A stretch of 64,000 nt of DNA, taken from assembly GCA_019637315.1 (NCBI GenBank), contig JAHBVU010000006.1, forward strand, positions 62,001 through 126,000. The letters run 5' to 3'. Below, piece after piece: positions 11,860 to 63,939 of this stretch. The position numbers and the translations under genes were made by a program. Source of the stretch: Gemmatimonadales bacterium (GTDB taxonomy: Bacteria > Gemmatimonadota > Gemmatimonadetes > Gemmatimonadales > GWC2-71-9). Each line of letters begins with the position of its first letter. Position 1 is the first letter of the stretch. The notes beneath the pieces are model-generated. The model made no database searches. It was not told where the DNA came from and worked only from the letters and a program-made list of their open reading frames with translations.

Positions 11860-12031
11860 GGCCCCGCCAAATGCGGGCCGAAACCGGTTCCAAGCCGAGC
11901 ATGACCGCACTCGCTAAATCTAGTCTACTGTTGACGTTACGCCATGCTGTGCTGAGATTCCACCGGCCTGACGCATGGCGGCTCGGCCGTCTGACTTCCG
12001 CGCATGCACCCCAAAACGACTGACTAGGTAC

Positions 12032-13549
12032 ATGACACTTTCCTCCGCGTCGATCCGGACAGCGATTCTCATCACCTTGCTGGCGCCAGGTCTGGCCAGC
12101 TCGCAGTCGCTGACGAAGAGCCTGACCCATCGACTCAACCAGGCTCCGTTCGATCGCCACCACTGGGGCGTTGCCGTCCTCGACGAGCGAGGCCGACTGC
12201 TGTTCGGCCACAACGCCGAGCGGCTCTTCACGCCAGCGAGCAACACCAAGCTGATCGTGACCGGGGCCGCGACGATGCTGCTCGGCCCCGACACCACGGT
12301 CAGAACCCCGGTCTATCTCGACGGGCCGGTCGAGCAGGGTACGCTGCGGGGTAACCTGATCCTCTACGGCAACGGCGATGCGACCTGGGCCCGTCGTTGC
12401 TACGCCGTGGATACCCTGGCCGCGGGGGCGTGCCTGACCGATCCGTTCGCCCCGCTCCGCCCCATTGCCACTGCGTTGAAGCGCGTCGGCGTCCGGCAGG
12501 TGAGCGGGCAGGTCATCGGTGATGGCAGTTTCTTCGAACCGATCACCTACCACCCGACCTGGGAAATCGGTGACCTGGTCTGGGGCTACGGTGCGCCCGT
12601 CTCCGGACTCGGCTTCAACGAGAATACCATCCAGGCCACCATCCGCCCCGGGCCGACGCCCGGCGCCCTGGCCTCGATTGCACTCTGGCCCGATCTCGGC
12701 GCCCTGACCGTCGAGAACCGCCTGATCACAGTTCCCGACTCGGAACGAACCGAGATCGACTGGGCCCGCGGGCCCGATGGCGTGACCGCCGTCGTCACAG
12801 GCACCATCCGGGCAAGCGAGCGCGAACGACGCAATACCCTCGCGGCCCCCGACCCGAACCGCTTCACCGCCCTGGCGCTGCACCAGGTGCTCGCCGACTC
12901 CGGCATCGTAGTGCTCGGCGGCGTCTCCGGCACCACCGACCCGCTCGCCACGCAAGCAGCTCGTCGAGGGCAACCGGTCGCCGAGATCGTATCCCGCCCG
13001 ATTCGCGACTGGGTCTTCCCGGTTCTCAATGTCAGTCAGAACTGGGTGGCCGAAATGCTGCTCAAGCTGCTGGGCAAACGATTCGAATCGGAAGGTTCGT
13101 GGCAGGCGGGACTGCGGGTCGAACGCCGCTTTCTGATCGACGTGGTCGGCGCCGACTCGACCCAGTTTTCGATTCAGGACGGTTCCGGCCTCTCGGCCCA
13201 GAACAGCGTCTCACCGCTGACCTTTGCGCGGCTACTGGCGTTCATGCAGCGGCAACCGCAGTACGCCGCCTTTGCCGCCGGGATGCCGCAAAGCGGGTCG
13301 GTAGGGTCCCTCCGCAACCGATTCCTCGCGACGCCGGTCGCGGAACGGGTCTGGGCCAAGACGGGCAGTATTGCCCAGGTCAACAGCCTCTCGGGATACA
13401 TCGGGGGCACCACCCTGGGGGAACCCCACTGCCGGATCTTCAGCGTTCAGGCCATGAATCACATTCTGGGCGGGCAGACCATGATTCGCGCCATCGACAG
13501 CGTCGTCAGCGACATCGGTGCGCAGAGCCGCTGCAACGTCAAACGATGA
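12032..13549 (+). CDS. dacB: D-alanyl-D-alanine carboxypeptidase/endopeptidase (PBP4 type, S13)
   Basis: The 505-residue periplasmic enzyme trims or cuts peptidoglycan cross-links. A signal peptide covers about residues 1-25 (ending in LASSQS). The active-site SxxK is S70-N-T-K73, the SxN motif is in NVSQNWVAEM, and the KTG motif is in WAKTGSI. The long insert between the first two motifs is typical of S13 peptidases. ATG at 12032 is chosen because the signal peptide begins there; the frame is open for a further 57 bases upstream. It is divergent from tamA and 28 bases upstream of the adenosyltransferase gene. Confidence 0.93.
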   Translation: MTLSSASIRTAILITLLAPGLASSQSLTKSLTHRLNQAPFDRHHWGVAVLDERGRLLFGHNAERLFTPASNTKLIVTGAATMLLGPDTTVRTPVYLDGPVEQGTLRGNLILYGNGDATWARRCYAVDTLAAGACLTDPFAPLRPIATALKRVGVRQVSGQVIGDGSFFEPITYHPTWEIGDLVWGYGAPVSGLGFNENTIQATIRPGPTPGALASIALWPDLGALTVENRLITVPDSERTEIDWARGPDGVTAVVTGTIRASERERRNTLAAPDPNRFTALALHQVLADSGIVVLGGVSGTTDPLATQAARRGQPVAEIVSRPIRDWVFPVLNVSQNWVAEMLLKLLGKRFESEGSWQAGLRVERRFLIDVVGADSTQFSIQDGSGLSAQNSVSPLTFARLLAFMQRQPQYAAFAAGMPQSGSVGSLRNRFLATPVAERVWAKTGSIAQVNSLSGYIGGTTLGEPHCRIFSVQAMNHILGGQTMIRAIDSVVSDIGAQSRCNVKR

Positions 13550-13577
13550 AGGGGCGGACTATACTTCCCCCGTTCCC

Positions 13578-14138
13578 ATGGAAGCGAAGGACGGCGTGAA
13601 GATCTATACCCGAACAGGCGACAAAGGGACCACCGGGCTCTTCGGCGGAGGGCGGGTCCCAAAGTCACACCCTCGCGTGGCGGCCTATGGCGACGTCGAC
13701 GAGCTCAACTCCGTCCTTGGCCTGGTCCGCGCCACCGGGCCGGATCTGTTCGACACCGAGTTGGAGCGGATCCAGCGCGACCTGTTCTCCATCGGCGGCC
13801 ACCTGGCCACCCCGGAGCCGGAGAAAGTCCGGGCCGCGCTGGCCAAAGCCGAGCTCAGCGAGGCCCGCATCGAGGAACTTGAGCGTCTGATCGACGCCGC
13901 CGACGAACAGCTCCCGGCGCTCCGGGCTTTCGTCCTGCCGGGAGGCACCCTCAAAGCCGCTCACCTCCACGTGGCGCGAACGGTCTGCCGCCGCGCTGAA
14001 CGACACGTCGTAGCCCTGGCGGCGGACGAGGAGATTCCCACCCTGTTCGTCGGCTATCTCAATCGGCTGAGCGACCTGCTGTTTACCTGGGCCCGGCTCG
14101 CCAACGCCCGCGAGGGCCGCGGCGACATTACATGGTAG
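13578..14138 (+). CDS. Cob(I)yrinic acid a,c-diamide adenosyltransferase (PduO type)
   Basis: The enzyme adenosylates cob(I)alamin to make coenzyme B12. The N-terminal IYTRTGDKGTTGLFGGGR and later VDELNSVLGL are the ATP-binding signatures of the PduO family, and the C-terminal half carries the cobalamin-site pattern (VCRRAER, YLNRLSDLLF). At 186 residues it is a single domain. ATG at 13578 gives the expected short N-terminus. Its stop overlaps the aroB start by 7 bases, so the two are co-translated. No other cobalamin genes are visible, so it may serve salvage for B12-dependent enzymes elsewhere. Confidence 0.94.
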   Translation: MEAKDGVKIYTRTGDKGTTGLFGGGRVPKSHPRVAAYGDVDELNSVLGLVRATGPDLFDTELERIQRDLFSIGGHLATPEPEKVRAALAKAELSEARIEELERLIDAADEQLPALRAFVLPGGTLKAAHLHVARTVCRRAERHVVALAADEEIPTLFVGYLNRLSDLLFTWARLANAREGRGDITW

Positions 14139-15226
14139 CCGGCCCACGAATCCTGGTCCGCCACGGTCTCGGAGAGTATCCCGTCATCATCCGCCCCGGC
14201 CTGCTCGACGACCTCGATTCGCTTGCAGAGGAAGTGCTGCCGGGACGGCGCCTCGTCGCGATAACCGACCGCAATGTCGCGCGCGCTGTTCCCCCAACCC
14301 TCAAGTGCCCGTTCCTGGTTGTGCCGCCCGGCGAGAGTTCCAAGACCCGCCGGCGCTGGGCCGACCTGACCGACCAGCTCCTGGAACTCGGTCTGACCCG
14401 TCAGGGAGCGCTGGTTGCGGTCGGAGGGGGCGTCGTCGGTGACCTGACCGGGTTCGTGGCCGCCACGTACCTGCGCGGAATCCCGTTCCTCCAGGTCCCC
14501 ACCTCGCTCCTGGCCATGGTCGATGCCTCGGTCGGCGGCAAAACCGGCCTCAATACCAAGCACGGGAAGAACCTGGTCGGCGCGTTTCATCCCCCGGCTG
14601 CGGTCGCCGTCGACCCGCTGGCCATCCGATCGCTCCGGTCGGCCCATGTCCGGGGCGGCCTGATGGAGGCAATCAAGCATGGGGTCATTGCCGATGCCGC
14701 ATACTACGATTGGATTGCCGACTCGACCCGCACCTTGCTGGCGCGCGACCCTGTCGCGGTCACCCGCCTGGTCACCACCAGCGTGACGATCAAAAGCGAG
14801 GTCGTCGGGGCCGACGAAAAGGAGGAAGGACGGCGGGCCATCCTCAACGCCGGGCACACCGTGGGACACGCGCTGGAGCGCTGGTCAGGGTACCGTATTC
14901 CACACGGCGATGCGGTTGGCATCGGCCTTCATGTGGAAACCGTGCTGGCGGAGGATCTGGGGCTCGCGCCGCCCGGAACCGCTGACCTGCTTCGGAGCCG
15001 CCTCACTGCACTCGGCTTGCCCCTGACACTGCCGCCCGCGAGCGACGACGACGCCTTGCTCGAGGCCATGCACCATGACAAAAAGGTCCGCGATCATGCC
15101 CTCCGCTTTGCGCTCCCGCGCGCGCCGGGCCTGCTGGCATCGCTGAGCGGTGCATGGACCACAGCCGTGTCGGACGACAGCGTTAGGCAATCGTTAGGCA
15201 GGGCTCGTACACTCTACCAGGCCTGA
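14132..15226 (+). CDS. aroB: 3-dehydroquinate synthase
   Basis: AroB converts DAHP to 3-dehydroquinate, the second step of the shikimate pathway, using NAD+ and zinc. The 364-residue protein shows the NAD-binding GGGVVGDLTGFVAATYLRG, the substrate-lysine region SVGGKTGLNTKHGKNLVGAFHPP, and the zinc ligands in LMEAIKHG, NAGHTVGHALE and GIGLHVE. It overlaps the adenosyltransferase gene by 7 bases. The last codons contain two copies of GTTAGGCA, part of an inverted-repeat set that continues into the following spacer. Confidence 0.96.
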   Translation: MVAGPRILVRHGLGEYPVIIRPGLLDDLDSLAEEVLPGRRLVAITDRNVARAVPPTLKCPFLVVPPGESSKTRRRWADLTDQLLELGLTRQGALVAVGGGVVGDLTGFVAATYLRGIPFLQVPTSLLAMVDASVGGKTGLNTKHGKNLVGAFHPPAAVAVDPLAIRSLRSAHVRGGLMEAIKHGVIADAAYYDWIADSTRTLLARDPVAVTRLVTTSVTIKSEVVGADEKEEGRRAILNAGHTVGHALERWSGYRIPHGDAVGIGLHVETVLAEDLGLAPPGTADLLRSRLTALGLPLTLPPASDDDALLEAMHHDKKVRDHALRFALPRAPGLLASLSGAWTTAVSDDSVRQSLGRARTLYQA

Positions 15227-15393
15227 GGTTATCCACAAATCGGGGCCAGGCACGAGCAAGGCGTAACCCCTTATCCTTCAATCGATTACGGAGATAGTCC
15301 CCGGAATTGTGGATTCCGGCTTTTGCCGTCATGTCGATGAAAACCGCAAGTCGTTGACTGCCTAACGAATCGTCATGTTGACAGCCTAACGCT
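15179..15393. repeat. Nested inverted repeats flanking the aroB-sigma factor spacer
   Basis: AGCGTTAGGC (15179-15188) and TCGTTAGGCAG (15191-15201) are answered in mirror order by CTGCCTAACGA (15358-15368) and GCCTAACGCT (15384-15393). The outer copies pair with each other (10 bases) and so do the inner ones (11 bases). The left pair lies in the last codons of aroB and the right pair just upstream of the sigma factor promoter. The two right-hand copies are also direct repeats, TTGAC(T/A)GCCTAACG at 15354 and 15378. This could be a set of four operator sites or a long-range stem; its function is unknown. Confidence 0.65.
15229..15237 (+). other. Isolated DnaA-box match
   Basis: TTATCCACA matches the DnaA-box consensus exactly, directly after the aroB stop. 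A weaker reversed copy (TGTGGATTC) lies about 70 bases downstream. There is no AT-rich unwinding region or cluster of boxes, so this is at most a DnaA regulatory site, and it may be chance. Confidence 0.3.
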
Positions 15394-15394
15394 A

Positions 15395-15424
15395 TTGACT
15401 GCTCCACCGGCCGATTCCTAGATT
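15395..15424 (+). promoter_or_regulatory. Predicted sigma-70-type promoter for the sigma factor gene
   Basis: TTGACT at 15395-15400 and TAGATT at 15419-15424 are separated by 18 bases, a good housekeeping-type promoter. It would start transcription near 15431 and give a leader of about 80 bases before the sigma factor ATG at 15515. It lies immediately beside the rightmost GCCTAAC repeat, so a protein bound there could control it. Confidence 0.55.
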
Positions 15425-15514
15425 GAATGCCGGTTTTCCTGAACCAAATCGCCGTCGTCACGAGCTCGCATCGCCGAGCCTCAAAGCAGCCGACCGTCTC
15501 CCAGCCGAGGTTGT

Positions 15515-16411
15515 ATGCGCACGTACCGCGATCGCCGGCCGCGCTCGCTTAGCCGGTCTTCCGCTGGTAGTTCCTTCGACCAGTACCTGCTGGACATCCG
15601 CAAGTTGCCGATGATCACCGATCCCAAAGAGGAGATTCGGCTGGCCAAACGCGCCCAGAAGGGTGACGTCGACGCCATGGACCGACTGGTGACCGCCAAC
15701 CTGCGGTTCGTGATCTCGTACGTGAAACGATTCCAGGGACACGGCCTCGACCTGGGCGAGCTCGTCGCCATTGGCAACGAGGGCTTGCTCAAGGCGGTCA
15801 AGAAGTTCGACCCTGCCCACGGCGTAAAGTTCATCAGCTATGCCGTCTGGTGGGTCCGCCAGTGCGTGCTCAAGGCCCTGGCAGAACAGACCCGCACCGT
15901 CCGCATCCCGCTCAATCAGAATGCCGCCCTGCTCCGAATGGCCAAAGTGGAAAGCCTGCTGTCGCAGGAGCTGGGTCGCTCGCCCACGGACGCCGAAACC
16001 GCCCAGGTCCTGGGCGAATCAGTCGACACCATCCGGTCGGCGCGACTGGTTTCGACGGTCGAGATGTCACTCGATGCACCGGTCGAACGTAGCGAATCAG
16101 GGTCAGCCACCTTTGGCGAGCGCGTCACCGGCGCCGCCGGCGGCGAGATCGAGGATTTCGTCGACACCGGGCTGCAGCGTGAGTTTCTGGCCAAGCTCTT
16201 CGAGACCTATCTGACTCCGCGGGAGCGGCGCATCCTGGCCCTCTACTATGGCCTGGATGAGGGTTCCGAGTCGCTCACGCTGGAAGGCATCGGCTCGATG
16301 CTGGGCGTTACGCGCGAGCGGGTTCGCCAGATCCGCGAGCGCGCCTTCGAGAAACTTCGCAACTCGCCGGAAGTCCGCTGTCTTCGTTTCCCGCCGGCAG
16401 AGATGGCCTGA
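15515..16411 (+). CDS. RpoD/SigA-family RNA polymerase sigma factor
   Basis: The 298-residue protein carries regions 1.2 (DQYLLDIRKLP), 2.1-2.4 (through YAVWWVRQCVLKAL, with the promoter-melting aromatic residues), 3 and 4.2 (LTLEGIGSMLGVTRERVRQI). It has no region 1.1 and no long non-conserved insert, like the short primary sigma factors of Bacteroidetes and relatives. Whether it is the primary or a group 2 factor cannot be settled from this window. It has its own predicted promoter and is followed by a Rho-independent terminator, so it appears to be a single-gene unit. Confidence 0.9.
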   Translation: MRTYRDRRPRSLSRSSAGSSFDQYLLDIRKLPMITDPKEEIRLAKRAQKGDVDAMDRLVTANLRFVISYVKRFQGHGLDLGELVAIGNEGLLKAVKKFDPAHGVKFISYAVWWVRQCVLKALAEQTRTVRIPLNQNAALLRMAKVESLLSQELGRSPTDAETAQVLGESVDTIRSARLVSTVEMSLDAPVERSESGSATFGERVTGAAGGEIEDFVDTGLQREFLAKLFETYLTPRERRILALYYGLDEGSESLTLEGIGSMLGVTRERVRQIRERAFEKLRNSPEVRCLRFPPAEMA

Positions 16412-16442
16412 CCAGCCGGCAGCCTGAACCCCGATGGAACCG

Positions 16443-16470
16443 CGGGAGCGCCATGGCGCTCCCGTTTTCT
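16443..16470 (+). terminator. Rho-independent terminator after the sigma factor gene
   Basis: A perfect 22-base palindrome (CGGGAGCGCC, AT, GGCGCTCCCG; 16443-16464) is followed at once by TTTTCT. It lies 31 bases after the sigma factor stop and 26 bases before the next gene. Confidence 0.85.
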
Positions 16471-16495
16471 CTTCGGCTCCGTCTACATTGCGGGC

Positions 16496-17140
16496 ATGGC
16501 CAGGTTTCCGCTCTTTCCGCTGCCGGTCGTCCTCTTCCCGGGGGCCCTGCTGCCACTCCACATTTTCGAGCCGCGCTACCGGGCCATGATCGCCGACTGC
16601 GCCGAGGGCAATCAGCGTTTCGTGTTGCTGCCCCCGGGCAATGACGACGAGGCGCCGGCGTCGGGAACTGTGGGAACCATCGCCCGGATCCGGGCGGTCC
16701 AGGCCCTCGCGGATGGCCGATCGAACATCGCCGTGTCGGGCGAGGAACGGGTCTCGCTGACGGCCGTGGCGGCGGCTGATCGACCTTACTTGATCGGCGA
16801 CGTCACTCCCCTCGATGACCTCGACGAGTTGCCGGTGTCACCTGCCGATACCGCCCGCTTGCTGGCGCTGGGTGAGCGGTATGTTGTCGCCCTGAGCACG
16901 ATGTCTGAGACAGATGCCGACGCCGACCTCGCGGTCGATCCGGGGACCCTCACGTTTCAGATCGCGTCGCTGACAGAGTGGGATTTCCCGACCAAGCAGC
17001 ACTTTCTCACGCTCCGCTCGCCTCGTGAACGAGTCGAGCGGTTGCTCGAGGCGCTACCGGCCCAGCTGGTCGATGTGGAAGCACGCGCGGCGACCCACCG
17101 CGGCGCCAAGCTCAACGGCAAGGGCAAGCACCCCGTATGA
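16496..17140 (+). CDS. LON peptidase substrate-binding domain protein
   Basis: This 214-residue stand-alone LON N-domain protein opens with PLFPLPVVLFPGALLPLHIFEPRYRAMI, the start of the Lon substrate-binding fold (shown in the first 35 residues), and lacks both the AAA and protease domains. Such proteins are thought to bind unfolded substrates or act as adaptors, but their role is not established. Its stop overlaps the glcD start (ATGA), so it heads a five-gene operon with the glycolate oxidase subunits. Confidence 0.88.
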   Translation: MARFPLFPLPVVLFPGALLPLHIFEPRYRAMIADCAEGNQRFVLLPPGNDDEAPASGTVGTIARIRAVQALADGRSNIAVSGEERVSLTAVAAADRPYLIGDVTPLDDLDELPVSPADTARLLALGERYVVALSTMSETDADADLAVDPGTLTFQIASLTEWDFPTKQHFLTLRSPRERVERLLEALPAQLVDVEARAATHRGAKLNGKGKHPV

Positions 17141-52430: not shown

Positions 52431-53318
52431 GTGGCACTCGTGATCGAGAATCTGACCAAGACCTATCCCAATGGTGTCCGGGCCTTGGCCGGCATCAACC
52501 TGACGATCGGAGCCGGGATGTTCGGTCTGCTGGGGCCCAACGGCGCTGGCAAGTCGTCGCTGATGCGTACCATTGCGACGCTACAGCTGCCCGACTCCGG
52601 CAGCATTCGCTTCAACGACATCGACGTGCTCCAACGCCCCGACGACCTGCGGCGCCAGCTCGGATACCTCCCCCAGGAGTTCGGACTCTATCCCAACCTC
52701 TCGGCGGAACTGACCCTGGATCATTTTGCCACGATGAAGGGCGTCATCGATCGCGGCGAGCGGCGCGACCTCGTCGCCGGCCTGCTGAACCAGACCAACC
52801 TCTACGGGGTCCGCAAGAAGCACGTGGGCACCTTCTCCGGCGGCATGAAGCAACGGCTGGGCATCGCGATTGCCCTTGCCGGCAACCCGAAGTTACTGAT
52901 CGTCGACGAGCCGACAGCCGGCCTCGATCCGACTGAGCGACACCGCTTCCTGAGCCTCCTGGGCGACATCGGCCGCGACGTGGTCGTGATCCTCTCAACC
53001 CACATCGTGGAAGACGTCCGAGAACTCTGCAACACGATGGCGATCATCAACGCCGGCAGTGTGGTCCTGTCGGGAGATCCACGCGCCGTCATCGAGGCGC
53101 TGCGCGGCAGAATCTGGCGGCGAACGGTTGCCAAGCAGGACCTCGATACCGTCAAAGCTGCCCATCATGTGATCTCGAGCCGATTGCTGGCAGGCACACC
53201 GGTCGTCCACGTCTACTCGGAGACCTCGCCCGGAGACGATTTTACGCCGGTCGAGCCCGGCCTGGAGGACGTCTATTTCCATCAGCTCGAACTCGCCGGC
53301 CGGCGAGAGGCGGCCTGA
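52431..53318 (+). CDS. ABC transporter ATP-binding protein
   Basis: The 295-residue ATPase has Walker A GPNGAGKSS (near residue 35), Q-loop in YLPQEFGLYP, signature FSGGMKQRL, Walker B LLIVDEPTAGLD and the switch His in STHIVED. A C-terminal extension of about 80 residues follows. It is 3 bases upstream of its permease partner. The start is GTG at 52431 with a GAGG element. Together with the permease-M1 fusion it forms a complete exporter-like unit. Confidence 0.93.
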   Translation: MALVIENLTKTYPNGVRALAGINLTIGAGMFGLLGPNGAGKSSLMRTIATLQLPDSGSIRFNDIDVLQRPDDLRRQLGYLPQEFGLYPNLSAELTLDHFATMKGVIDRGERRDLVAGLLNQTNLYGVRKKHVGTFSGGMKQRLGIAIALAGNPKLLIVDEPTAGLDPTERHRFLSLLGDIGRDVVVILSTHIVEDVRELCNTMAIINAGSVVLSGDPRAVIEALRGRIWRRTVAKQDLDTVKAAHHVISSRLLAGTPVVHVYSETSPGDDFTPVEPGLEDVYFHQLELAGRREAA

Positions 53319-53321
53319 TCG

Positions 53322-56300
53322 ATGCTGCGCAATGTCATGGCGTTCGAGGTCCGCTACCACCTGACCCGGCCGGTCACGTACCTCTATTTCACGGTCTTCT
53401 TCCTGCTGGCGTTCTTCATCGTTTCGACCGATGTCGCAACGGTGTCCGGAGCAGGCGGCCAGGTCAAACGCAACGCGCCCTTCTTCGTCGCCAATACCAT
53501 GATGATCCTGGTAGCCATTGGCCAGGTCATCGTCACCGGCCTGGTTGGCACCGCAGTGCTGCGCGACTACCAGTATCGGACTCACGAGCTGCTCTTTACC
53601 ACCCCGATTACCCGTTTCGCCTATCTCGGCGGGCGCTTCTCCGGGGCCTTTCTCGTCATGGTCCTGGTTCATCTGGGGATTCCGCTGGGCCTCTGGTTCG
53701 GCTCCCTGATGCCGTGGATCGACCCGGAGCAACTGCTGCCGGTCCGCACCGTTGGCTATCTTCGCCCGTTCCTCGTCCTCGTACTCCCATCGGTCTTCCT
53801 GCTCAGCGCGATCTTCTTCGCGGTCGGCGCGCTGACCCGGAGTCTCTTTGCGATCTACACCCAGGGCATCTTCCTGCTGGTGGCCTGGAGCATTGCAGGC
53901 CAACTCTTCAACGACCTGGACAATCGGGACCTGGCGGCCCTGCTCGAACCCTTCGGACTGCAGGCGTTCGGGTGGCTGACACGCTACTGGACCGTCGCTG
54001 AACGTAACACCTTGCCGGTACCACTGAGCGGCATCATCCTCAGCAACCGCTTGCTCTGGACCGGAATCGCCGCGGCCATCGTCGCGATAACCTTTGCCGT
54101 ATTCCGTTTCCGCAGCGCCCCGCCCACGTTGCGGCGCAGTCGCAAGCTGGTCGAGGAATCGGGTGAGGCGTTCAGCGGCGGAGCGGTGCTGACCGCCTCC
54201 GCACGACAGCAGTACGGAGCCTCCGCCTGGCTCCGCCAGTGGTTCAGCACGACCCGACTTTCGTTCTGGAGCATCGTTCGACAAGTCCCGTTTCTGGCCA
54301 TCGTGACGGTCGGCGTCATCAACCTGGCCATGTCCGCCCATTACGCCGACACGATCTTCGGCGCCAAGACCTGGCCCGTCACGTACAACATGCTGGAGGT
54401 CGTCGAGGGCGCCTTCCTGATCTTCTTCATCATCCTGATCACGATCTACGCAGGCGAGGCAGTCTGGCGCGAGCGCCAGCTGCACATGGACCAGATCACC
54501 GACGCGTTGCCGACACGCTCGAGCGTGTCACTCCTGGGCAAACTGTCCGGCCTGATCCTGGTGCACATCCTGCTGCTCTTCGTGATGATGGCGTCGGGAA
54601 TGGCGGTCCAGACGCTCAAGGGTTATACCAACTACGAACCGGGTCTCTACCTGACCTACCTGTTCGGAACGACCCTGCCGCAGCTGATTTTCGTCACGGT
54701 CCTGGCCGTCCTGGTCCACGTGCTCGTGAACCAGAAATTCGTGGGCCATGTGATCATGATTCTGTTCTGGATCGTGCGAAGCGTGCTCTCCGAACTCGGC
54801 CTCGAGCATCAGCTGTTCGCCTACGGCAGCCTGCCTGGCTTCACCTATTCGGACATGAACGGCTTCGGTCCATTCGTTCCGAATCTGACCTGGTCGCTCG
54901 TCTACTGGAGCGGCGTCGCGGGTCTCGTCGGTGTGCTGGCACACCTGTTCTGGATTCGAGGTACGGCCATGCCCTGGCGTGCCCGGCTTGCCGTTGCCGG
55001 ACGACGGTGGCAGGGACCAGTCCGGGTCGTGACAGTGGCCGCTGCCCTCGTCGCGGTCTTTGGCGGCGGCGTGATCTTCTACAACACCAACGTGCTCAAC
55101 CCCTACACGACGAGGGCTGAAACACGAAGCCAACGAGCAGACTATGAGCGGACCTACAAGTCGCTTGCCAGTCTGCCCCAACCGCGTCTGATTGCGGCCG
55201 ATGTCCGAGCCGACCTGGAACCGGAGCGACAGGCGTTTGCCCTGACCGGAACGCTAACATACCTCAATCGCGCCGAACGTCCGATCGACTCCATTGTCGT
55301 TACGTCGAGCGTCATCGACCTGGCAATCGATACGCTCGCATGGAGCCGAGCGGCCAGTATCCTGGTCAGCGACAGCGCGAAAGGCACCCGAATTTTCCGG
55401 CTCGAGGAGCCGCTGGCACCCGGCGACACCATCCAGCTGCGCTATCGAGCCAGTTTTGCGCAGCGAGGGTTCCCCAACTCAGGACCGTCGACGGCTATTG
55501 TCGCAAACGGGAGTTTCATCAACTCGTCGTACTACCCCGTTCTGGGCTATCAGGCGAGCGGCGAGTTGGCCTCCGACGAGGACCGCCGAAAAGAGAAACT
55601 GCCGCCCAAGGACCGGATGGCGCCTCTCGAGGACGAGCACGCGCGCCAGGATACCTATCTCGGTGTCAACGCCGATTGGATCAGCTTCCGCGCCACCGTC
55701 AGCACGGCCCCGGACCAGATCGCCATTGCCCCGGGATACCTGGTGCGCGAGTACGAGGAGAACGGACGTCGGGTTTTCGAGTACGAAATGGACCGCCCGA
55801 TGCTGGCCTTCTTCTCGTTCCTCTCGGCCCGCTACGAAGTCCGCCGCGATCGATGGAATGATGTAGCACTCGAGATCTACTACCACCCCGGGCACGAGTA
55901 CAACCTCGACCGGATGATGGCGTCGATGAAAACGTCGCTGGAGTACTTCTCAACTCACTTCAGCCCCTACCAGTTTCGGCAGGTTCGCATCCTCGAGTTC
56001 CCGCGCTACGCCGGCTTTGCCCAGGCCTTTCCCAATACCGTTCCCTACTCGGAACGGATCGGTTTCATCCTGCGCGCCGACCGAAAGGACGACCTCGATA
56101 TCCCGTTCTATGTCACCGCCCACGAGGTCGGCCACCAGTGGTGGGCGCATCAGGTCATTGGCGGCAATCTGCAGGGCTCAACCCTCTTCTCGGAGGGCCT
56201 GGCGAACTACTCTGCGCTGACGGTGATGGAAAAGGAGCTCGGTACGGAGAAGCTGCAGCAGTTCCTCTCCGAGGAACTCGACCGGTACCTCGCCGGACGG

Positions 56301-56909
56301 GCCACTGAGACCAAACGGGAAATGCCCCTGCTGCGAGTCGAGAACCAGCCCTATATCCACTACAACAAGGGCTCCCTCGCGCTCTACGCGCTCCGCGACT
56401 ACATCGGTGAAGACGCCATGAATCGCGCCCTGAGCCGCTTCCTCGCGGACAAGGCGTTCCAGGCGCCCCCGTTTACGACCAGCCGCGAGTTCATAGGGTA
56501 CCTCGAGGCGGAAACGCCTGACTCGCTGCAGTACGTACTCGAGGATCTGTTCCGCACCATTACGCTCTGGGACAACAGCGTCGAGTCCGTCCGGGCCACC
56601 CCCAGAGAGGACGGCAGGTACGACGTGAGTCTCGCGATTCGTTCGCTCAAGTTCCGGGCGGACAGCGTCGGCAATCAGACCGAGATTCCAGTCAACGATC
56701 TGATCGACATCGGTGTTTTCGGAGCTGCCGAACCCGGGAGCAAGCTGGGCCCCGCCCTCTACCGGGCCAAACACTGGATCCGAAGTCGCGATACCACCAT
56801 CACGGTCATCGTCGAGTCGGCACCGCGACGAGCCGGAATTGATCCCTACAACAAGCTGATCGATCGCGATCCAAGGGACAACGCACGAGACGTTACGACC
56901 CAACCGTAA
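53322..56909 (+). CDS. ABC permease fused to M1-family aminopeptidase
   Basis: The 1195-residue fusion has an N-terminal half (about 1-590) with some 12 membrane helices in ABC-2-like permease arrangement, and a C-terminal half forming a gluzincin M1 peptidase. The zinc motif HEVGH is at H934, E935, H938, and the third ligand Glu is in FSEGLANY 18 residues on. The peptidase domain most likely faces the periplasm. The natural substrate is unknown; it could be exported or cleaved peptides. A 14-base-pair terminator follows directly. Confidence 0.9.
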   Translation: MLRNVMAFEVRYHLTRPVTYLYFTVFFLLAFFIVSTDVATVSGAGGQVKRNAPFFVANTMMILVAIGQVIVTGLVGTAVLRDYQYRTHELLFTTPITRFAYLGGRFSGAFLVMVLVHLGIPLGLWFGSLMPWIDPEQLLPVRTVGYLRPFLVLVLPSVFLLSAIFFAVGALTRSLFAIYTQGIFLLVAWSIAGQLFNDLDNRDLAALLEPFGLQAFGWLTRYWTVAERNTLPVPLSGIILSNRLLWTGIAAAIVAITFAVFRFRSAPPTLRRSRKLVEESGEAFSGGAVLTASARQQYGASAWLRQWFSTTRLSFWSIVRQVPFLAIVTVGVINLAMSAHYADTIFGAKTWPVTYNMLEVVEGAFLIFFIILITIYAGEAVWRERQLHMDQITDALPTRSSVSLLGKLSGLILVHILLLFVMMASGMAVQTLKGYTNYEPGLYLTYLFGTTLPQLIFVTVLAVLVHVLVNQKFVGHVIMILFWIVRSVLSELGLEHQLFAYGSLPGFTYSDMNGFGPFVPNLTWSLVYWSGVAGLVGVLAHLFWIRGTAMPWRARLAVAGRRWQGPVRVVTVAAALVAVFGGGVIFYNTNVLNPYTTRAETRSQRADYERTYKSLASLPQPRLIAADVRADLEPERQAFALTGTLTYLNRAERPIDSIVVTSSVIDLAIDTLAWSRAASILVSDSAKGTRIFRLEEPLAPGDTIQLRYRASFAQRGFPNSGPSTAIVANGSFINSSYYPVLGYQASGELASDEDRRKEKLPPKDRMAPLEDEHARQDTYLGVNADWISFRATVSTAPDQIAIAPGYLVREYEENGRRVFEYEMDRPMLAFFSFLSARYEVRRDRWNDVALEIYYHPGHEYNLDRMMASMKTSLEYFSTHFSPYQFRQVRILEFPRYAGFAQAFPNTVPYSERIGFILRADRKDDLDIPFYVTAHEVGHQWWAHQVIGGNLQGSTLFSEGLANYSALTVMEKELGTEKLQQFLSEELDRYLAGRATETKREMPLLRVENQPYIHYNKGSLALYALRDYIGEDAMNRALSRFLADKAFQAPPFTTSREFIGYLEAETPDSLQYVLEDLFRTITLWDNSVESVRATPREDGRYDVSLAIRSLKFRADSVGNQTEIPVNDLIDIGVFGAAEPGSKLGPALYRAKHWIRSRDTTITVIVESAPRRAGIDPYNKLIDRDPRDNARDVTTQP

Positions 56910-56961: not shown

Positions 56962-58323
56962 CTAGCGGATCAGATGGAAGCGGTCCTGGCGCTTGAGTAC
57001 CCAGCTGGGCCGACCGTCGCGCCCGACAAAGAAGTCCTCCTCCTGCGCAATCCGGACTCGCTGCCCGCCCCACTCGGGCACCGGCGTGGTCACCTGCAAT
57101 TCGCTCGAATACCACATCCCGGGAATCACCTTGTGGTCGCCCCGGCCAGGGACCCCTTCCTGGCGGTCCCAGAGGCCAATCAGCGGCCCGGCCCCATGAC
57201 CATGCATCCCGACCGGATGGCTGTACATCGTGCCATCGAGCCCCTCACGATCCATCGTCGCACGAACCGCACGGAGAATCTCGTTGCCGGTTCGCCCCGG
57301 CCGGACCTCTTCGAACAGGATATCCTGGGCCCGGTTCGCGCGCGACAAGGCACGCTTCAGTCCCTCGGGAGCATCGGTTTCGCCCTCGCGAAGGACGTAC
57401 GCATTGTGTTGCGTATCCGTATTGAGCCTGAGCGCCGTCAAGCCGACATCACACCAGATCAGGTCGCCCCGCTCGATTACCGGGTCTGCTCCCAACTGGT
57501 CGGCAGTGGCACCCCGCCTCTGCACAGCAACCGACGGCTGAAACCAGGTCCCGATTCCGAGATCGGCAACCCGCTGCCGCCACCACCAGACGAGGTCACT
57601 GGTCCGGGTTACGCCCGGCGTGATGGTCCGGGAGGAAAACATCTCCTCGATCATCGACCAGACGAGCGCAGTGAGCTCGCGGAAGAACACTTCCTCCTCG
57701 GGCAACCGGGAGGCGATGAAGTCCACCGCCAGACCCTCCGCCGGCCGGAAGCGACTCGTCCATTCCGGGCCCAGCGCCTCCGACATTCCGGCCAGCTCGC
57801 CCGATGAGAGGCCATCGGCAAAGGCAAAGGTTCGCGAGGTGTTGATGCCGATGACCTTGGGCTGCCGCGCCTCGATCACATCCTTGAGCACCAGCCACTG
57901 CTGGTCGCCCCAGAGTTCGGCCTGTTGCCCTGCAATAGCGCCCTCGACCGCTCGCGTGGAGCGGACCGCCTCGTAGAGCCCACCTTGCGACGACCCGCCG
58001 AGCGCAATCCGCTCGACCCCGCGCTCAGGGCCGCGATCGAAGAAGACGTAGATGGTCCGGCGTCGGGCCGCAAAGGTGGTCGGCGAGACCAGGCTCGTAA
58101 AGACCGGATCCTCGTTGTACTCCTGGGTCGGGATCACCCACATGTCGACCCCGTAGGCTCGCATCAGCGGTGGCAGGATCGTCTCCAGTCGCTTCGCAAG
58201 CCAGGCTTGCTGCCGCTCGGCCTGTTCACGAACGGTTCCGAACGGTCGCTGCTGCGCGGCAAGATCTGCCCGGATCCCCGAGAGAACTGCCAGCAGCAGA
58301 ACCAGGCCGATGGGTCGCCTCAT
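56962..58323 (-). CDS. Secreted M24-family peptidase (Xaa-Pro aminopeptidase-like)
   Basis: The 453-residue protein has a signal peptide (residues 1-24, ending LAAQQ), a creatinase-type N-terminal domain and a pita-bread catalytic domain. The metal ligands are present: Asp in WCDVG, Asp in NTDTQHN, His in YSHPVGMHGHG, Glu in SSELQV and Glu in AQEEDFF. It probably removes N-terminal residues before proline in the periplasm. Its ATG overlaps the Rieske stop (ATGA), so it is the last gene of that operon, although a functional link is not obvious. Confidence 0.88.
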   Translation of the reverse strand: MRRPIGLVLLLAVLSGIRADLAAQQRPFGTVREQAERQQAWLAKRLETILPPLMRAYGVDMWVIPTQEYNEDPVFTSLVSPTTFAARRRTIYVFFDRGPERGVERIALGGSSQGGLYEAVRSTRAVEGAIAGQQAELWGDQQWLVLKDVIEARQPKVIGINTSRTFAFADGLSSGELAGMSEALGPEWTSRFRPAEGLAVDFIASRLPEEEVFFRELTALVWSMIEEMFSSRTITPGVTRTSDLVWWWRQRVADLGIGTWFQPSVAVQRRGATADQLGADPVIERGDLIWCDVGLTALRLNTDTQHNAYVLREGETDAPEGLKRALSRANRAQDILFEEVRPGRTGNEILRAVRATMDREGLDGTMYSHPVGMHGHGAGPLIGLWDRQEGVPGRGDHKVIPGMWYSSELQVTTPVPEWGGQRVRIAQEEDFFVGRDGRPSWVLKRQDRFHLIR

Positions 58324-59456
58324 GCCGCCCGTCCCATCAAGTCGAGATAGGCGCGGTCCCACGCCGCCGGCATGCTCTCGCGCGCTGAGTACGGCCCAGG
58401 CTGGTAGCGCCGGGACTTGATGCCCAGCAGGCTTTCCTCGGTAATCTGCCAGTCCTGGCGGTTGGTAACATCCCACATCGCAATGGCATCCTCCGGATGA
58501 AAGTCTGGGGCGTCAAATGCCTCGGGGTGAAAGAGCCACTCGCTCTCGACCACGGTCTGCTCGGCCGAGACCGGCCAGACGGTGTAGTAGTTGACGTAGT
58601 CGGGGTGAATGCTCAGCATCAGATTGGGCATCACAGTGTAGTAGTAGGCTCGCCGCCTATCGTCCGGCGATAAGTCGGCAATCAGCCTCGCCGCGTAGCG
58701 ACCCGAGGTCGTCACGCTCTCGGCCCCATCCACGATCTCCATATAGCCGCCCAGGTACGGGCCCTCCACGAGATCGTTGGCACCACTCTGGTACGGCAGG
58801 CGACAGGACAGTTCCGGATGAATCATCGGACAATGGAGGCACTCGGAATAGTTCTGATAGATCAGTTTCCAGTTGGATCGGATCTCGTAGCGAACGCGGT
58901 GTCCGCTCCGAAGCCGATCGAGGCCGAACCGACTGAGCCGCCCGACCAGCGGCGCGGCCATCACCTCGAATGGTTGCGCCTCCGAGTCGAGGTTGACGAA
59001 GAGGAACCCTTCCCACGTGGCCACCCTCGCACTGTGCAACCCATAGTCAGACTTGACGAAGCCTTCGACATCCTGCATGTGCGGCGCACCAAGCAGCCGG
59101 CCGTCGACACCGAAGGTCCAGGCGTGGTACGGGCACTGAATCGACCCAGAGAAACGCCCGGCCTCTGCCGAGCAGAGTCGAGTACCGCGATGCCGGCACA
59201 CATTGAAGTGCGCCCGCACGTCGCCGCTCCGATCGCGAACGATGATCAGAGATTCGCCCGCTATGCTGCAGAGGTAGTAGTCTCCCGGCTCGGCAACCCG
59301 GTCCGCCCGACCGACGCAGTGCCATTGTGTCAGGCCGATCCGCTCGGACTCCTCGGCAAAGATCTCGGGCGACAGGTAATACGCCGCCGGCATGGTGAAC
59401 GACCCCTGCCGGAACGTGGTCGTGGTTCGGTGAAACTGGTTCATCTCTGTCGTCAT
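58320..59456 (-). CDS. Rieske oxygenase alpha subunit, quaternary-amine type
   Basis: The 378-residue oxygenase has a Rieske 2Fe-2S site (C87-x-H89 and C108-x-x-H111) and a mononuclear iron site with H208 and H213 in SECLHCPMIH and probably D335 in NRQDW. The bridging position is E205, where most Rieske dioxygenases have Asp; Glu is also reported for carnitine monooxygenase CntA. Size and sequence style match the GbcA/CntA/stachydrine demethylase group. No reductase partner is in the window. ATG at 59456 follows an open but unlikely upstream stretch. It lies 28 bases after the first PYROXD2-like gene and is coupled to the M24 gene. Confidence 0.88.
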   Translation of the reverse strand: MTTEMNQFHRTTTTFRQGSFTMPAAYYLSPEIFAEESERIGLTQWHCVGRADRVAEPGDYYLCSIAGESLIIVRDRSGDVRAHFNVCRHRGTRLCSAEAGRFSGSIQCPYHAWTFGVDGRLLGAPHMQDVEGFVKSDYGLHSARVATWEGFLFVNLDSEAQPFEVMAAPLVGRLSRFGLDRLRSGHRVRYEIRSNWKLIYQNYSECLHCPMIHPELSCRLPYQSGANDLVEGPYLGGYMEIVDGAESVTTSGRYAARLIADLSPDDRRRAYYYTVMPNLMLSIHPDYVNYYTVWPVSAEQTVVESEWLFHPEAFDAPDFHPEDAIAMWDVTNRQDWQITEESLLGIKSRRYQPGPYSARESMPAAWDRAYLDLMGRAA

Positions 59457-61032: not shown

Positions 61033-62600
61033 TGGTCCGCCAGAATCCTGAGCGCAGCAAGCCGACCGGAGGCGCCCATGATGCCGCCTCCCGGGTGGGT
61101 GCCCGCGCCGCACTGGTAGTAGCCACGGATGGGAGTTCGGTACCGGGACCACGCCGCCGCCGGCCTGAGGAAGAAGAGCTGCTGCAACGCCAGCTCGCCC
61201 GCAAAGATGTTGCCCTCCGACAGCCCGGTGATCCGCTCGATGTCGACCGGCGTCAGGACCTGTCGATGGAGGATCGCACTCTTCAGGTTCGGCGCGTACC
61301 GGGTCAACGTATCGACCACGGCGTCCCCGAACGCCTCCCGCTTCGCGTCCGTCCAGCCGCCGTTCAGGTGGTACGGGGCATACTGTACGAAGATGCTCAT
61401 TACATGCTTACCAGGCGGCGCCATGCCCGGGTCGATCATGGAGGGGATCACGATGTCCATATATGGACTGCGGGAGAACTCGCCGTACTTGGCATCATCA
61501 TACGCCCGTTCCAGGTAGTCGAGGCTCGGGCTGATGGAAAACGCTCCCCGGTGCTGCGGGCCGATGCCCGGCATGCAACTGAAGTTCGGCAGTTCGGAGA
61601 GCGCCAGGTTCACTTTGCCGGACGAGCCGCGGAACTTGAAGCGCCGGACCGCATCGACGAGGTCGGTGGGCAACGCGGCGGGATCGACGAGCTCGAGAAA
61701 GGTCCGGCGCGGATCGAGGCCGCTCACCACCAGCGGCGCCCTGATCTCTTCCCCGCTGTCGAGCACGACCCCGGTCGCCCGGTCGCCCTGGGTCAGGACT
61801 TTGGCCACTGCGGCGTTGGTCCGGATCGTGGCCCCGAACGACTCCGCCGCGCGGCCGATGGCGTTACTGATCGACCCGGTGCCGCCCTTGGCAAAACCCC
61901 AGGCCCGAAACGCCCCGTCGATTTCGCCCATGTAGTGGTGCAACAGCACATAGGCCGACCCCGGAGAGCGCGGCCCCAGAAAGGTACCGATGATCCCGCT
62001 GGCCGACTTGGTGGCCTTGAGCGGATCGAACTCGAACCACTCGCCGAGGTAGTCGGCGGAGCTCATGGTCATGAGTTTGTACAAGGCGTGGAACCGATCC
62101 GCACCGAGCGATCGCATGTGCCTGCCCAGCTTGAGCATGCCGCGCAGATCGCTGGGGGCAAGCGACGCCGGGTCCGGCGGCATCATGCCCAGGATCGGTC
62201 GAACAGCCATGGCCATGTGGTGCATCATCCGCCCGAACTCGACCGTTGCCTCCGCATCGAGCGGCGAATGCCGGGCGATTTCCCGCCTGGTCTGGTCCGG
62301 ATCGGCCCACCCGGCGAGATAGTCGCCGTTGTCGAGTGGTGTGACCGTACTCTCGAGCGGCAGGATCTGAAGCCCGTGCCCCGGCAGGTCGAGCTCACGG
62401 ATGATCTCCGGACGCAGCAGGCTGACAACGTACGAGAAGACGGAGAAGGTGAAGCCGGGAAATACCTCCTCGCTCACCGCTGCTCCACCAATCAGATGCC
62501 GACGCTCGAGCACCAGGACCTTCCGGCCGGCACGGGCCAGGTACGCAGCCGTGACCAGACCGTTGTGCCCGCCGCCGATGACGATGGCATCGTAGCTCAC
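61029..62600 (-). CDS. PYROXD2/phytoene-dehydrogenase-like flavoprotein, copy 2
   Basis: The 523-residue flavoprotein begins MSYDAIVIGGGHNGLVTAAYLARAG (first 25 residues, quoted in part: VIGGGHNGLVTAAYL), the dinucleotide-binding motif, then VLERRHLIGGAAVSEE. The closing motif is GAGTHPGGGIMGASGR. The GTG start at 62600 overlaps the stop of the GcvT-like gene (GTGA). With copy 1 it probably forms the oxidative part of the operon's pathway. No carotenoid synthesis genes (crtB, crtE) are near, so a carotenoid role is unlikely. Confidence 0.88.
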   Translation of the reverse strand: MSYDAIVIGGGHNGLVTAAYLARAGRKVLVLERRHLIGGAAVSEEVFPGFTFSVFSYVVSLLRPEIIRELDLPGHGLQILPLESTVTPLDNGDYLAGWADPDQTRREIARHSPLDAEATVEFGRMMHHMAMAVRPILGMMPPDPASLAPSDLRGMLKLGRHMRSLGADRFHALYKLMTMSSADYLGEWFEFDPLKATKSASGIIGTFLGPRSPGSAYVLLHHYMGEIDGAFRAWGFAKGGTGSISNAIGRAAESFGATIRTNAAVAKVLTQGDRATGVVLDSGEEIRAPLVVSGLDPRRTFLELVDPAALPTDLVDAVRRFKFRGSSGKVNLALSELPNFSCMPGIGPQHRGAFSISPSLDYLERAYDDAKYGEFSRSPYMDIVIPSMIDPGMAPPGKHVMSIFVQYAPYHLNGGWTDAKREAFGDAVVDTLTRYAPNLKSAILHRQVLTPVDIERITGLSEGNIFAGELALQQLFFLRPAAAWSRYRTPIRGYYQCGAGTHPGGGIMGASGRLAALRILADQ

Positions 62601-63790
62601 GCAACCGCCTTCTTTCGGGGCGGATCGAAGAAAGGAAGTGCCGTTACCCGAGCGTGCGCCCGGCGACGATGGTGTTCGACGGTCACTTCCATCTCGACCC
62701 GCGTCTCAGGCGCGGCATGGGCGGCCTGGAGGTGCGCCAGAGCTAGATATTTCTTGAGCAGCGGCGACCAGCAGCCGCTCGAGGCGTAGCCGATCTGTCG
62801 CCCGTCGCGATAGACCGGTACGCTGGCCCGCCACGCGACCGAGGGCAACGCGGGCGGAAGACCAACCGACGCGTACAGCGCCTCCAGCGACTCCCACTCG
62901 ACTTCGATTCCGACGAAGCGCCAGGCCGCACCGCGGACCCGCTCGGTCGCCAGCGCCCGCCGACCGTTGAACGGGCCTTTCTCGAAGCTCACAGTCCAAT
63001 CGAGCGACAACTCGAACGGGGTCGACTTCTGAGGCTCGATCAAGGCCCGCTCGGCCGAGTGATAGTCGACGTCGAGCATGACGAGCCCAGCTTCGATCCG
63101 GGCCGTATCGAGCGCCCAGATGCCCGCAGGGGTGATCCCGAACGCAAATCCCTCCGCCATCAGCGCGTCCCAGACTGCCAGCGCACCGTGCGCAGGTACC
63201 CACAGCTCGTATCCGAGGTCGCCGGTGTATCCCGTCCGCGACAGGTCGACAGGAACCCCGGCAATCCGACGGGAGGTCGTCCGAAAGTACCGCAGGTCGT
63301 CGATCGGGCGATCCGCCACCCGGTTGAGGATGTCCCGCGAGAGCGGTCCCTGCAACGCCAGCGCACCGACCTGATCCGACAGGTCGGCGATGTCGACCTG
63401 CATCCCGAATGCGTTCCGATGCAACCACCGGAGGCTTGGCTCGGCCGAGGTCAGCCGGTAGGTCTCGTCGTCCAGCCGACTCACGGTTCCGTCATCGACC
63501 ACTTTGCCCCGAGCATCGCACCAGGTCGTATACATCACCTGACCGACGGCGGCAGACGCCACCTGGCGCGTTACCATCCGATCGAGCAGCCGGCCGGCAT
63601 CGCGACCCTGGATCAGGTACTTGTGAAGCGGAGAAACGTCAAAAAGGGCCGCGGCGTTGCGCACGGCCGCATACTCCCGATCAGGGGCCATGTCGTAGGC
63701 GCTTGCTACGGCGTGCCCCGCCCAGCGCCGCCATGCCTGGCCGGTAACGAGCGGTGCCGTCCGCTCGTGAAACGGAGTCGTCTTGAGCAT
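62597..63790 (-). CDS. GcvT-like folate-dependent aminomethyltransferase/demethylase
   Basis: The 397-residue protein is built like the glycine-cleavage T protein and DMSP/dimethylglycine demethylase relatives. The folate-site pattern SRTGYTGDLGYELW is near residue 195, LDTARIEAGL follows, then a C-terminal barrel with GYASSGCWSPLLKK. It is expected to pass a one-carbon unit to tetrahydrofolate. It is the first gene of the operon and lacks other glycine-cleavage genes nearby, which argues against being housekeeping GcvT. ATG at 63790 is chosen for the canonical N-terminus. Confidence 0.88.
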   Translation of the reverse strand: MLKTTPFHERTAPLVTGQAWRRWAGHAVASAYDMAPDREYAAVRNAAALFDVSPLHKYLIQGRDAGRLLDRMVTRQVASAAVGQVMYTTWCDARGKVVDDGTVSRLDDETYRLTSAEPSLRWLHRNAFGMQVDIADLSDQVGALALQGPLSRDILNRVADRPIDDLRYFRTTSRRIAGVPVDLSRTGYTGDLGYELWVPAHGALAVWDALMAEGFAFGITPAGIWALDTARIEAGLVMLDVDYHSAERALIEPQKSTPFELSLDWTVSFEKGPFNGRRALATERVRGAAWRFVGIEVEWESLEALYASVGLPPALPSVAWRASVPVYRDGRQIGYASSGCWSPLLKKYLALAHLQAAHAAPETRVEMEVTVEHHRRRAHARVTALPFFDPPRKKAVA

Positions 63791-63939
63791 CGGGATTCCC
63801 TGGCCGCGGATCGTGCGTAAGGACGATGGTCGTCGCAAGATACAGCCGCAAAGAACCCCTCGACAGATCGCCGCTCGACCCCCTTGTTCGGATTATCTAC
63901 GGTGGACATCGGGCCGTGTCGGGGCTAAATATTCCTGCT

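Follow-up and report, generated by a model that had tools for sequence, protein, structure and literature searches.

The gene described here encodes the alpha subunit of a Rieske oxygenase and lies in a 64,000-nucleotide stretch of DNA from a Gemmatimonadales bacterium (assembly GCA_019637315.1, contig JAHBVU010000006.1, positions 62,001 to 126,000 of the forward strand), which we call the window. It belongs to an operon of five genes, whose features are collected in Table 1. The match of the protein to PF00848, at 148 bits against a cut-off of 24.9, identifies a catalytic domain with a 2-His-1-carboxylate iron site. The catalytic motif holds the bridging residue E205, the iron ligands H208 and H213, the cysteine pair C206/C209 and the aromatic residue Y203; by alignment, D335 completes the set of mononuclear iron ligands.

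Conservation was followed in two alignments, one of 90 rows (the window protein and 89 others at 47–72% identity) and one of 97 rows (the window protein and 96 others), the latter including a few more distant second oxygenases such as L128_13095, L131_11416, L132_11275 and L072_2004. E205, H208, H213, D335, C206 and C209 do not vary among the 90 sequences of the closer set, and hence the pattern of E205 and the ligands is not a matter of chance. The Rieske cluster residues C87, H89, C108 and H111 are present in every row of the wider set.

Table 1. The oxygenase gene, its iron-site features and the other genes of the operon. Rows are those of the 97-row alignment; the start codons of the operon genes are our choice.
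Feature	Position in window	Strand	Evidence
Rieske oxygenase alpha subunit, 378 aa, group V type	58320..59456	minus	Pfam Ring_hydroxyl_A 148 bits, Rieske 64 bits
Rieske [2Fe-2S] motif C87-R-H89 ... C108-P-Y-H111, residues 87-111	59124..59198	minus	97/97 rows
Catalytic motif N202-Y-S-E-C-L-H-C-P-M-I-H213	58818..58853	minus	sequence, alignment
Glu205 codon, bridging residue	58842..58844	minus	residue counted in SECLHCPMIH; column common to CntA Glu205
Trp328 codon, Stc2 Trp353 place	58473..58475	minus	96/97 rows; register from Stc2 alignment
Asp335 codon, third mononuclear-iron ligand	58452..58454	minus	aligned column, 97/97 rows
GcvT-like (folate-binding) protein, stand-alone, 398 aa, first operon gene	62597..63793	minus	Pfam GCV_T 211 bits
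FAD2, CrtO-like flavoprotein, 523 aa	61029..62600	minus	Pfam Amino_oxidase 72 bits
FAD1, CrtO/CrtI-like flavoprotein (amine oxidase superfamily), 515 aa	59485..61032	minus	Pfam Amino_oxidase 50 bits
M24 metallopeptidase-like protein, last operon gene	56962..58323	minus	Pfam Peptidase_M24 61 bits

The bridging glutamate

At the position that bridges the Rieske and mononuclear iron sites, the first-pass annotation had read Glu rather than the usual Asp and had pointed to the same residue in carnitine monooxygenase (CntA). Both statements hold. We aligned the protein with E. coli YeaW and HcaE, printed stretches of CntA, Stc2 and 3n0q, and other relatives. E205 shares the bridging column with the Glu of CntA (Glu205), YeaW, Stc2 and 3n0q, and the Priestia, Leisingera and Sinorhizobium relatives have Glu there as well, whereas HcaE and the second Rieske oxygenase of the same genome (contig C33) have Asp. 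Another Asp that might serve as the bridge was looked for, and no competing Asp was found at that place. In CntA, Glu205 carries electrons between the subunits, and the E205D and E205Q variants are cited as inactive (PMC7948474).

The idea of an exchange did not survive: within its group Glu is the ordinary residue, found in CntA, YeaW, Stc2 and all 90 orthologs. It is also found in a second type of Rieske oxygenase of the related genomes (L106–L111), characterized by the motif EGYH, which has Glu at the bridge in 6 of 6 aligned rows, lacks the Cys pair and carries Tyr or Phe at position 203. Eight loci of this type were fetched (L106–L113), and the six with plus-strand frames were aligned, leaving out L112 and L113. 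Because the EGYH-type rows have Glu too, Glu alone is no proof of a methylated-amine substrate. Judged by sequence, the bridging Glu is a feature of a wider part of the Rieske superfamily and ordinary within group V. The earlier suggestion that Glu marks a methylated-amine oxygenase candidate is therefore kept only in its conclusion, as group V is the best filing for the protein but Glu by itself is not the marker.

Residues and fold as marks of group V

The better evidence for the group V filing is the Cys206/Cys209 pair, the aromatic residue at 203, Trp328 and the predicted fold. Each cysteine is found in 96 of 97 rows, and a Cys-X-X-Cys pair, described as 'unique to some Group V' enzymes, likely keeps the iron ferrous (PMC10952381). 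Residue 203 is aromatic in all 97 rows (Tyr in 90 and Phe in 7). In CntA, Y203 holds the ammonium group through a pi-cation contact. This residue defines group Va (CntA, choline monooxygenase and OxyBAC), whereas group Vb (GbcA, BmoA and Stc2) has Asn at 203 (PMC7948474). The family thus carries the Va mark, which the EGYH-type rows share, and the Asn of group Vb occurs in none of the 97 rows; in the alignment it is seen in Stc2, 3n0q and the Sinorhizobium relative. Trp328 corresponds in position to Stc2 Trp353, a residue depicted at the product proline in a figure (PMC10952381, legend), and YeaW has Arg at this position. As far as the aligned residues go, the oxygenase family combines the Va aromatic residue with a Stc2-like Trp.

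The AlphaFold2 model of the monomer has a predicted local distance difference test score (pLDDT) of 95.5. When the fold was compared with solved structures, as had been suggested earlier, the closest were 3n0q (Z 41.1), Stc2 (41.0) and CntA (38.2 to 35.9), and these three fill the first 10 rows of the search. The margin is narrow for the lowest CntA row (35.9), which is followed by TPADO at 35.5 and by other ring-hydroxylating enzymes at 35.5 and lower. Stc2, the stachydrine demethylase of Sinorhizobium meliloti (3vca, 4qup, 4quq, 4qur), is the closest fold of known function and aligns over 356 residues with 30% identity. It has the Glu bridge, the Cys pair and the Trp in common with the window protein and differs from it by Asn in the place of Tyr203. 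CntA and YeaW (6y8j, 6y9c; E. coli yeaW) share the motif NYxECxHC, with Glu205, Tyr203 and Cys206/Cys209, Glu205 and Tyr203 even being identically numbered. The C-terminal half aligns with 3n0q (E 8e-13) and with Stc2 (E about 1e-10), while the match to CntA is not significant.

Operon and gene neighbourhoods

The five genes run in the same direction in the order GcvT-like protein, FAD2, FAD1, oxygenase and M24 peptidase. GcvT and FAD2 overlap by 4 nt, as do FAD2 and FAD1; a gap of 28 nt separates FAD1 from the oxygenase gene, which in turn shares an ATGA overlap with the M24 gene. The gene beyond GcvT, at the window end, is on the opposite strand. Among solved structures, the GcvT-like protein is closest to trimethylamine N-oxide demethylase, in the C-terminal part of that enzyme (9q5a, E 7.6e-53; see also 9q59). 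Here the GcvT-like part has a gene of its own, with flavoprotein genes and the Rieske oxygenase gene as neighbours. The E. coli arrangement is different again, as the reductase gene yeaX adjoins yeaW, and the place beside the oxygenase is here taken by GcvT and the flavoproteins.

Both flavoproteins are distantly related to CrtO and CrtI. A carotenoid role was rejected, since the CrtO model, whose cut-off is 1000 bits, gives FAD1 157 bits and FAD2 297 bits. The M24 peptidase was also rejected as a part of the pathway, as it is found in just 4 of 101 loci (L005–L105, many of them short), and it is probably a passenger. On the plus strand, convergent with the operon, a reading by eye of positions 52431–56909 suggests a gene for an ABC ATPase followed by one for a 1195-aa protein, apparently a membrane portion joined to an M1-type peptidase (HEVGHQWW).

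A flavoprotein of the FAD2 type tends to co-occur with the oxygenase. We searched 61 genomes, our own (G000) and 60 relatives, and counted 22 of them, our own included, as oxygenase-bearing at a best E below 1e-100, with weaker matches to other oxygenase types left uncounted. FAD2 relatives at E <= 1e-80 are present in 21 of the 22. Best matches that are about 50% identical to FAD2 and represent a paralog are labelled FAD3. Of the genomes with the oxygenase, 21 of 22 have FAD2 or FAD3, versus 10 of 39 of those without it (Fisher p 8e-8); within one family the figures are 18 of 19 versus 7 of 18 (p 4e-4), and both p-values are inflated by shared ancestry. FAD3 is the best match in eight genomes, all eight with the oxygenase, and lies on another contig in three. 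In two loci from genomes that lack the oxygenase (L173 and L180) the FAD1 relative of a GcvT-FAD module is found near a gene that by eye resembles an amino-acid transporter.

The wider neighbourhoods were surveyed in the best 80 of 375 relatives found in genome contigs, whose record titles place the subfamily in Gemmatimonadota, Verrucomicrobiota, Chloroflexota and other phyla. In the 46 of these loci with 2.5 kb on both sides of the gene, a FAD1/FAD2 relative is found within 3.5 kb in 15 and a GcvT relative in 11. Other settings cluster by lineage in the tree. In Verrucomicrobia (L084, L080, L066, L077 and others) the setting is one of tryptophan degradation, with a gene resembling tryptophan 2,3-dioxygenase (249.6 bits against a curated cut-off of 390.7), one for a 3-hydroxyanthranilate dioxygenase that passes one of two curated cut-offs and a gene for an Amidohydro_2 protein, to which some loci add a kynurenine-monooxygenase-like gene, named by eye. 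In some Gemmatimonadota the oxygenase gene is found near genes for an MFS transporter and a cupin, in others near ones of the fumarylacetoacetase type. In three loci the oxygenase gene is followed by a tyrosine-decarboxylase-like gene that scores under its curated cut-offs. The 35% identical relative from Priestia is surrounded by SolA, a FAD-dependent oxidoreductase and a BCCT transporter. At L128, genes for an N-methyl-L-tryptophan oxidase (305.8 bits against a cut-off of 257) and for an agmatinase (185.7 bits against 174.3) adjoin that of a second, more distant oxygenase. This locus (11138–16595), as well as L131 and L132, has two Rieske oxygenases a few kb apart, accompanied by SolA-type and CrtO-like flavoproteins. 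These settings point towards methyl-group and amino-acid metabolism and leave the substrate unnamed. Among the titles and abstracts of open-licence PMC papers listed by our searches, we found none that describes the operon or the subfamily.

Proposed reaction, electron supply and alternatives

We propose, with moderate confidence, that the protein is a group V Rieske oxygenase that demethylates an N-methylated, probably quaternary, amine, that the GcvT-like protein captures the released carbon and that the flavoproteins carry out the follow-up step. The family would then most likely form a new subfamily of N-demethylating oxygenases within group V. Electrons would enter the Rieske cluster of one subunit and cross the subunit border via Glu205 to the iron held by H208, H213 and D335 of the neighbouring subunit, where oxygen would be used to give a hydroxylated carbon on the substrate nitrogen. 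Tyr203 and Trp328 probably enclose the ammonium group as an aromatic cage, and the iron may be held reduced with the help of the Cys206/Cys209 pair. It is because of the GcvT-like neighbour that we infer demethylation with folate carbon capture: the GcvT-like protein would pass the freed one-carbon unit to tetrahydrofolate, and the CrtO-like flavoproteins would oxidize the remaining methylated amine.

Several observations speak against this proposal. The best NCBIfam model, that of GbcA (NF058607), gives 218.2 bits, far below its cut-off of 670 bits. The tree leaves the place of the family among group V unsettled, as long branches meet in it and named references are few; CntA and YeaW group with the EGYH-type rows on long branches, apart from most family members. 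Residue 203 matches group Va, and the Va members named in PMC7948474 are not demethylases. The neighbours vary by lineage (tryptophan degradation, fumarylacetoacetase-type, MFS), and one shared pathway is not evident. Finally, of the 61 genomes, 10 have the GcvT-FAD module but no oxygenase and 9 have the oxygenase but not the module, with G015 and G050 counted as module genomes by FAD2 alone since their contigs end there, and within one family the association of the oxygenase with the whole module is not significant (p 0.19).

The alternative that survives best, although we consider it unlikely, is that the enzyme works like CntA or choline monooxygenase of group Va and hydroxylates the carbon next to the ammonium without demethylation. 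The outcome would be C–N cleavage or an aldehyde, and GcvT and the flavoproteins would act on the product or be unrelated. The invariably aromatic residue 203, the Va mark, and the frequent separation of the oxygenase from the GcvT module speak for this. However, Trp328 occupies the place of Stc2 Trp353, where YeaW has Arg, the C-terminal half aligns significantly with Stc2 and 3n0q but not with CntA, the best Z to Stc2 is about 3 above the best Z to CntA, and a folate-binding GcvT-like protein is encoded next door.

The source of electrons was considered separately. The first-pass annotation had noted the lack of an adjacent reductase gene and concluded that a reductase must be borrowed. The former is borne out: there is none in or beside the operon, and PF00970 and PF00111, searched across the whole genome, have no match within the window. 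The CntAB arrangement, with a CntB-type reductase beside the oxygenase, is thus absent here. The search for a GbcB/CntB-type reductase elsewhere in the genome, also proposed earlier, returned one, a 413-aa frame on contig C33 (8293–9534) that is 38% identical to E. coli YeaX over 337 columns. The Asp-type oxygenase and two IclR-type regulators are encoded nearby; the contig (in G000, L148) also holds a GMC-type oxidoreductase, this and the regulators being named by eye. Contig C33 is 13.6 kb long, and its tetranucleotide correlation with the window is 0.895, compared with a minimum of 0.945 for equally long window pieces, a yardstick that favours those pieces as parts of the same window. Loci of related genomes give 0.860–0.893 and shorter stretches of other contigs of the same genome 0.78–0.87. 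Contig C33 may be foreign or misbinned.

Reductases of this kind are rare among the relatives. Among the matches listed, where one with a weak Fer2 part could be missed, a FAD part and a C-terminal Fer2 share one frame in 3 of 61 genomes (G000, G027 and G043) and in 2 of the 22 with the oxygenase (our own and G027). The protein search for YeaX-like reductases, which was complete, found none in the four sister species that carry the same oxygenase (G001–G004). PF00970 passes its cut-off in 3 of the 22 genomes, G027, G052 and G057, but it can miss true reductases, as that of our own genome scores 20.7 against a cut-off of 21.1 bits; the G052 and G057 frames are without a Fer2 pattern, and a donor role in a three-component system is possible there. 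Similarly, no YeaX-like or HcaD-like reductase was found in 101 loci, many of them short, by queries that do find their controls. This set (L003, L005–L084 and L114–L133) differs from the one used for the M24 count, and places fetched twice, such as L005 and L114, count double in it. The single weak reductase match in it is a RACo-type protein of L061. Genes for such proteins lie directly upstream of the oxygenase gene in two Chloroflexota loci, L061 (7127–9939), where a pterin-binding protein is also encoded and the RACo Pfam domains were confirmed, and L068 (7266–9862), where DUF1638 is found beside it. The Fer2 domain of these RACo-type proteins is a conceivable electron donor.

Ferredoxins of the genome were considered too. 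A stand-alone [2Fe-2S] ferredoxin was rejected as the donor, as the five PF00111 matches over the cut-off are, by eye, the C33 reductase, a xanthine-dehydrogenase-type small subunit, and complex-I-, formate-dehydrogenase- and succinate-dehydrogenase-type subunits. The search for a Rieske-type ferredoxin gave three PF00355 matches: a 167-aa open frame and the two oxygenases, that of the window and that of contig C33. Fer4 was matched 18 times, twice within one 117-aa open frame (C1:23090-23215), a possible free ferredoxin.

That the oxygenase borrows the reductase of contig C33 is, in our view, rather improbable. It is the one YeaX-like reductase in the genome, and a review calls Rieske reductases moderately promiscuous (PMC12445004). 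On the other hand, its gene has a different oxygenase nearby, one with an Asp bridge, none like it was found in the four sister species, and the base composition of its contig deviates. Borrowing of a CntB-type reductase is conceivable in this genome, but for most family members no such enzyme was seen. As YeaX-like reductases were observed in 2 of the 22 genomes and in no sister species, the oxygenase probably relies on a different donor as a rule.

It is more doubtful still that the enzyme hydroxylates a breakdown product of an aromatic amino acid, such as tryptophan or tyrosine, and that its group V appearance merely reflects ancestry. The tryptophan-degradation genes around the Verrucomicrobia gene, the fumarylacetoacetase-type neighbours in some Gemmatimonadota and the tyrosine-decarboxylase-like gene of three loci would fit this. 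These settings, however, cluster within single tree lineages, the conserved aromatic residues and the Cys pair suit an ammonium substrate, and the iron-site motif is unlike that of HcaE and the C33 oxygenase. Least credible is that the protein is simply the glycine betaine monooxygenase (GbcA) of these bacteria, for although the GbcA model is its best curated match, the score is far too low, Tyr203 replaces the Asn of group Vb and a YeaX-like reductase was not seen in 20 of 22 genomes.

A far-fetched extension of the demethylation proposal would also account for the electrons. There would be no dedicated NADH:[2Fe-2S] reductase, and FAD2/FAD3, acting as an N-methyl-amine dehydrogenase, would feed electrons taken from its own substrate to the oxygenase, directly or via the 4Fe-4S ferredoxin of the cell. 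If this were true, the oxidation of one methyl group would pay for the next oxygenation, with GcvT collecting the carbon.

In summary, the Glu bridge was already known, and what is of interest is a subfamily that mixes the active-site marks of groups Va and Vb. Most of the related genomes searched showed no CntB-type reductase, which touches on how electrons reach group V oxygenases in these bacteria. The proposal of N-demethylation also provides a testable link between Rieske chemistry, CrtO-like flavoproteins and folate one-carbon metabolism.

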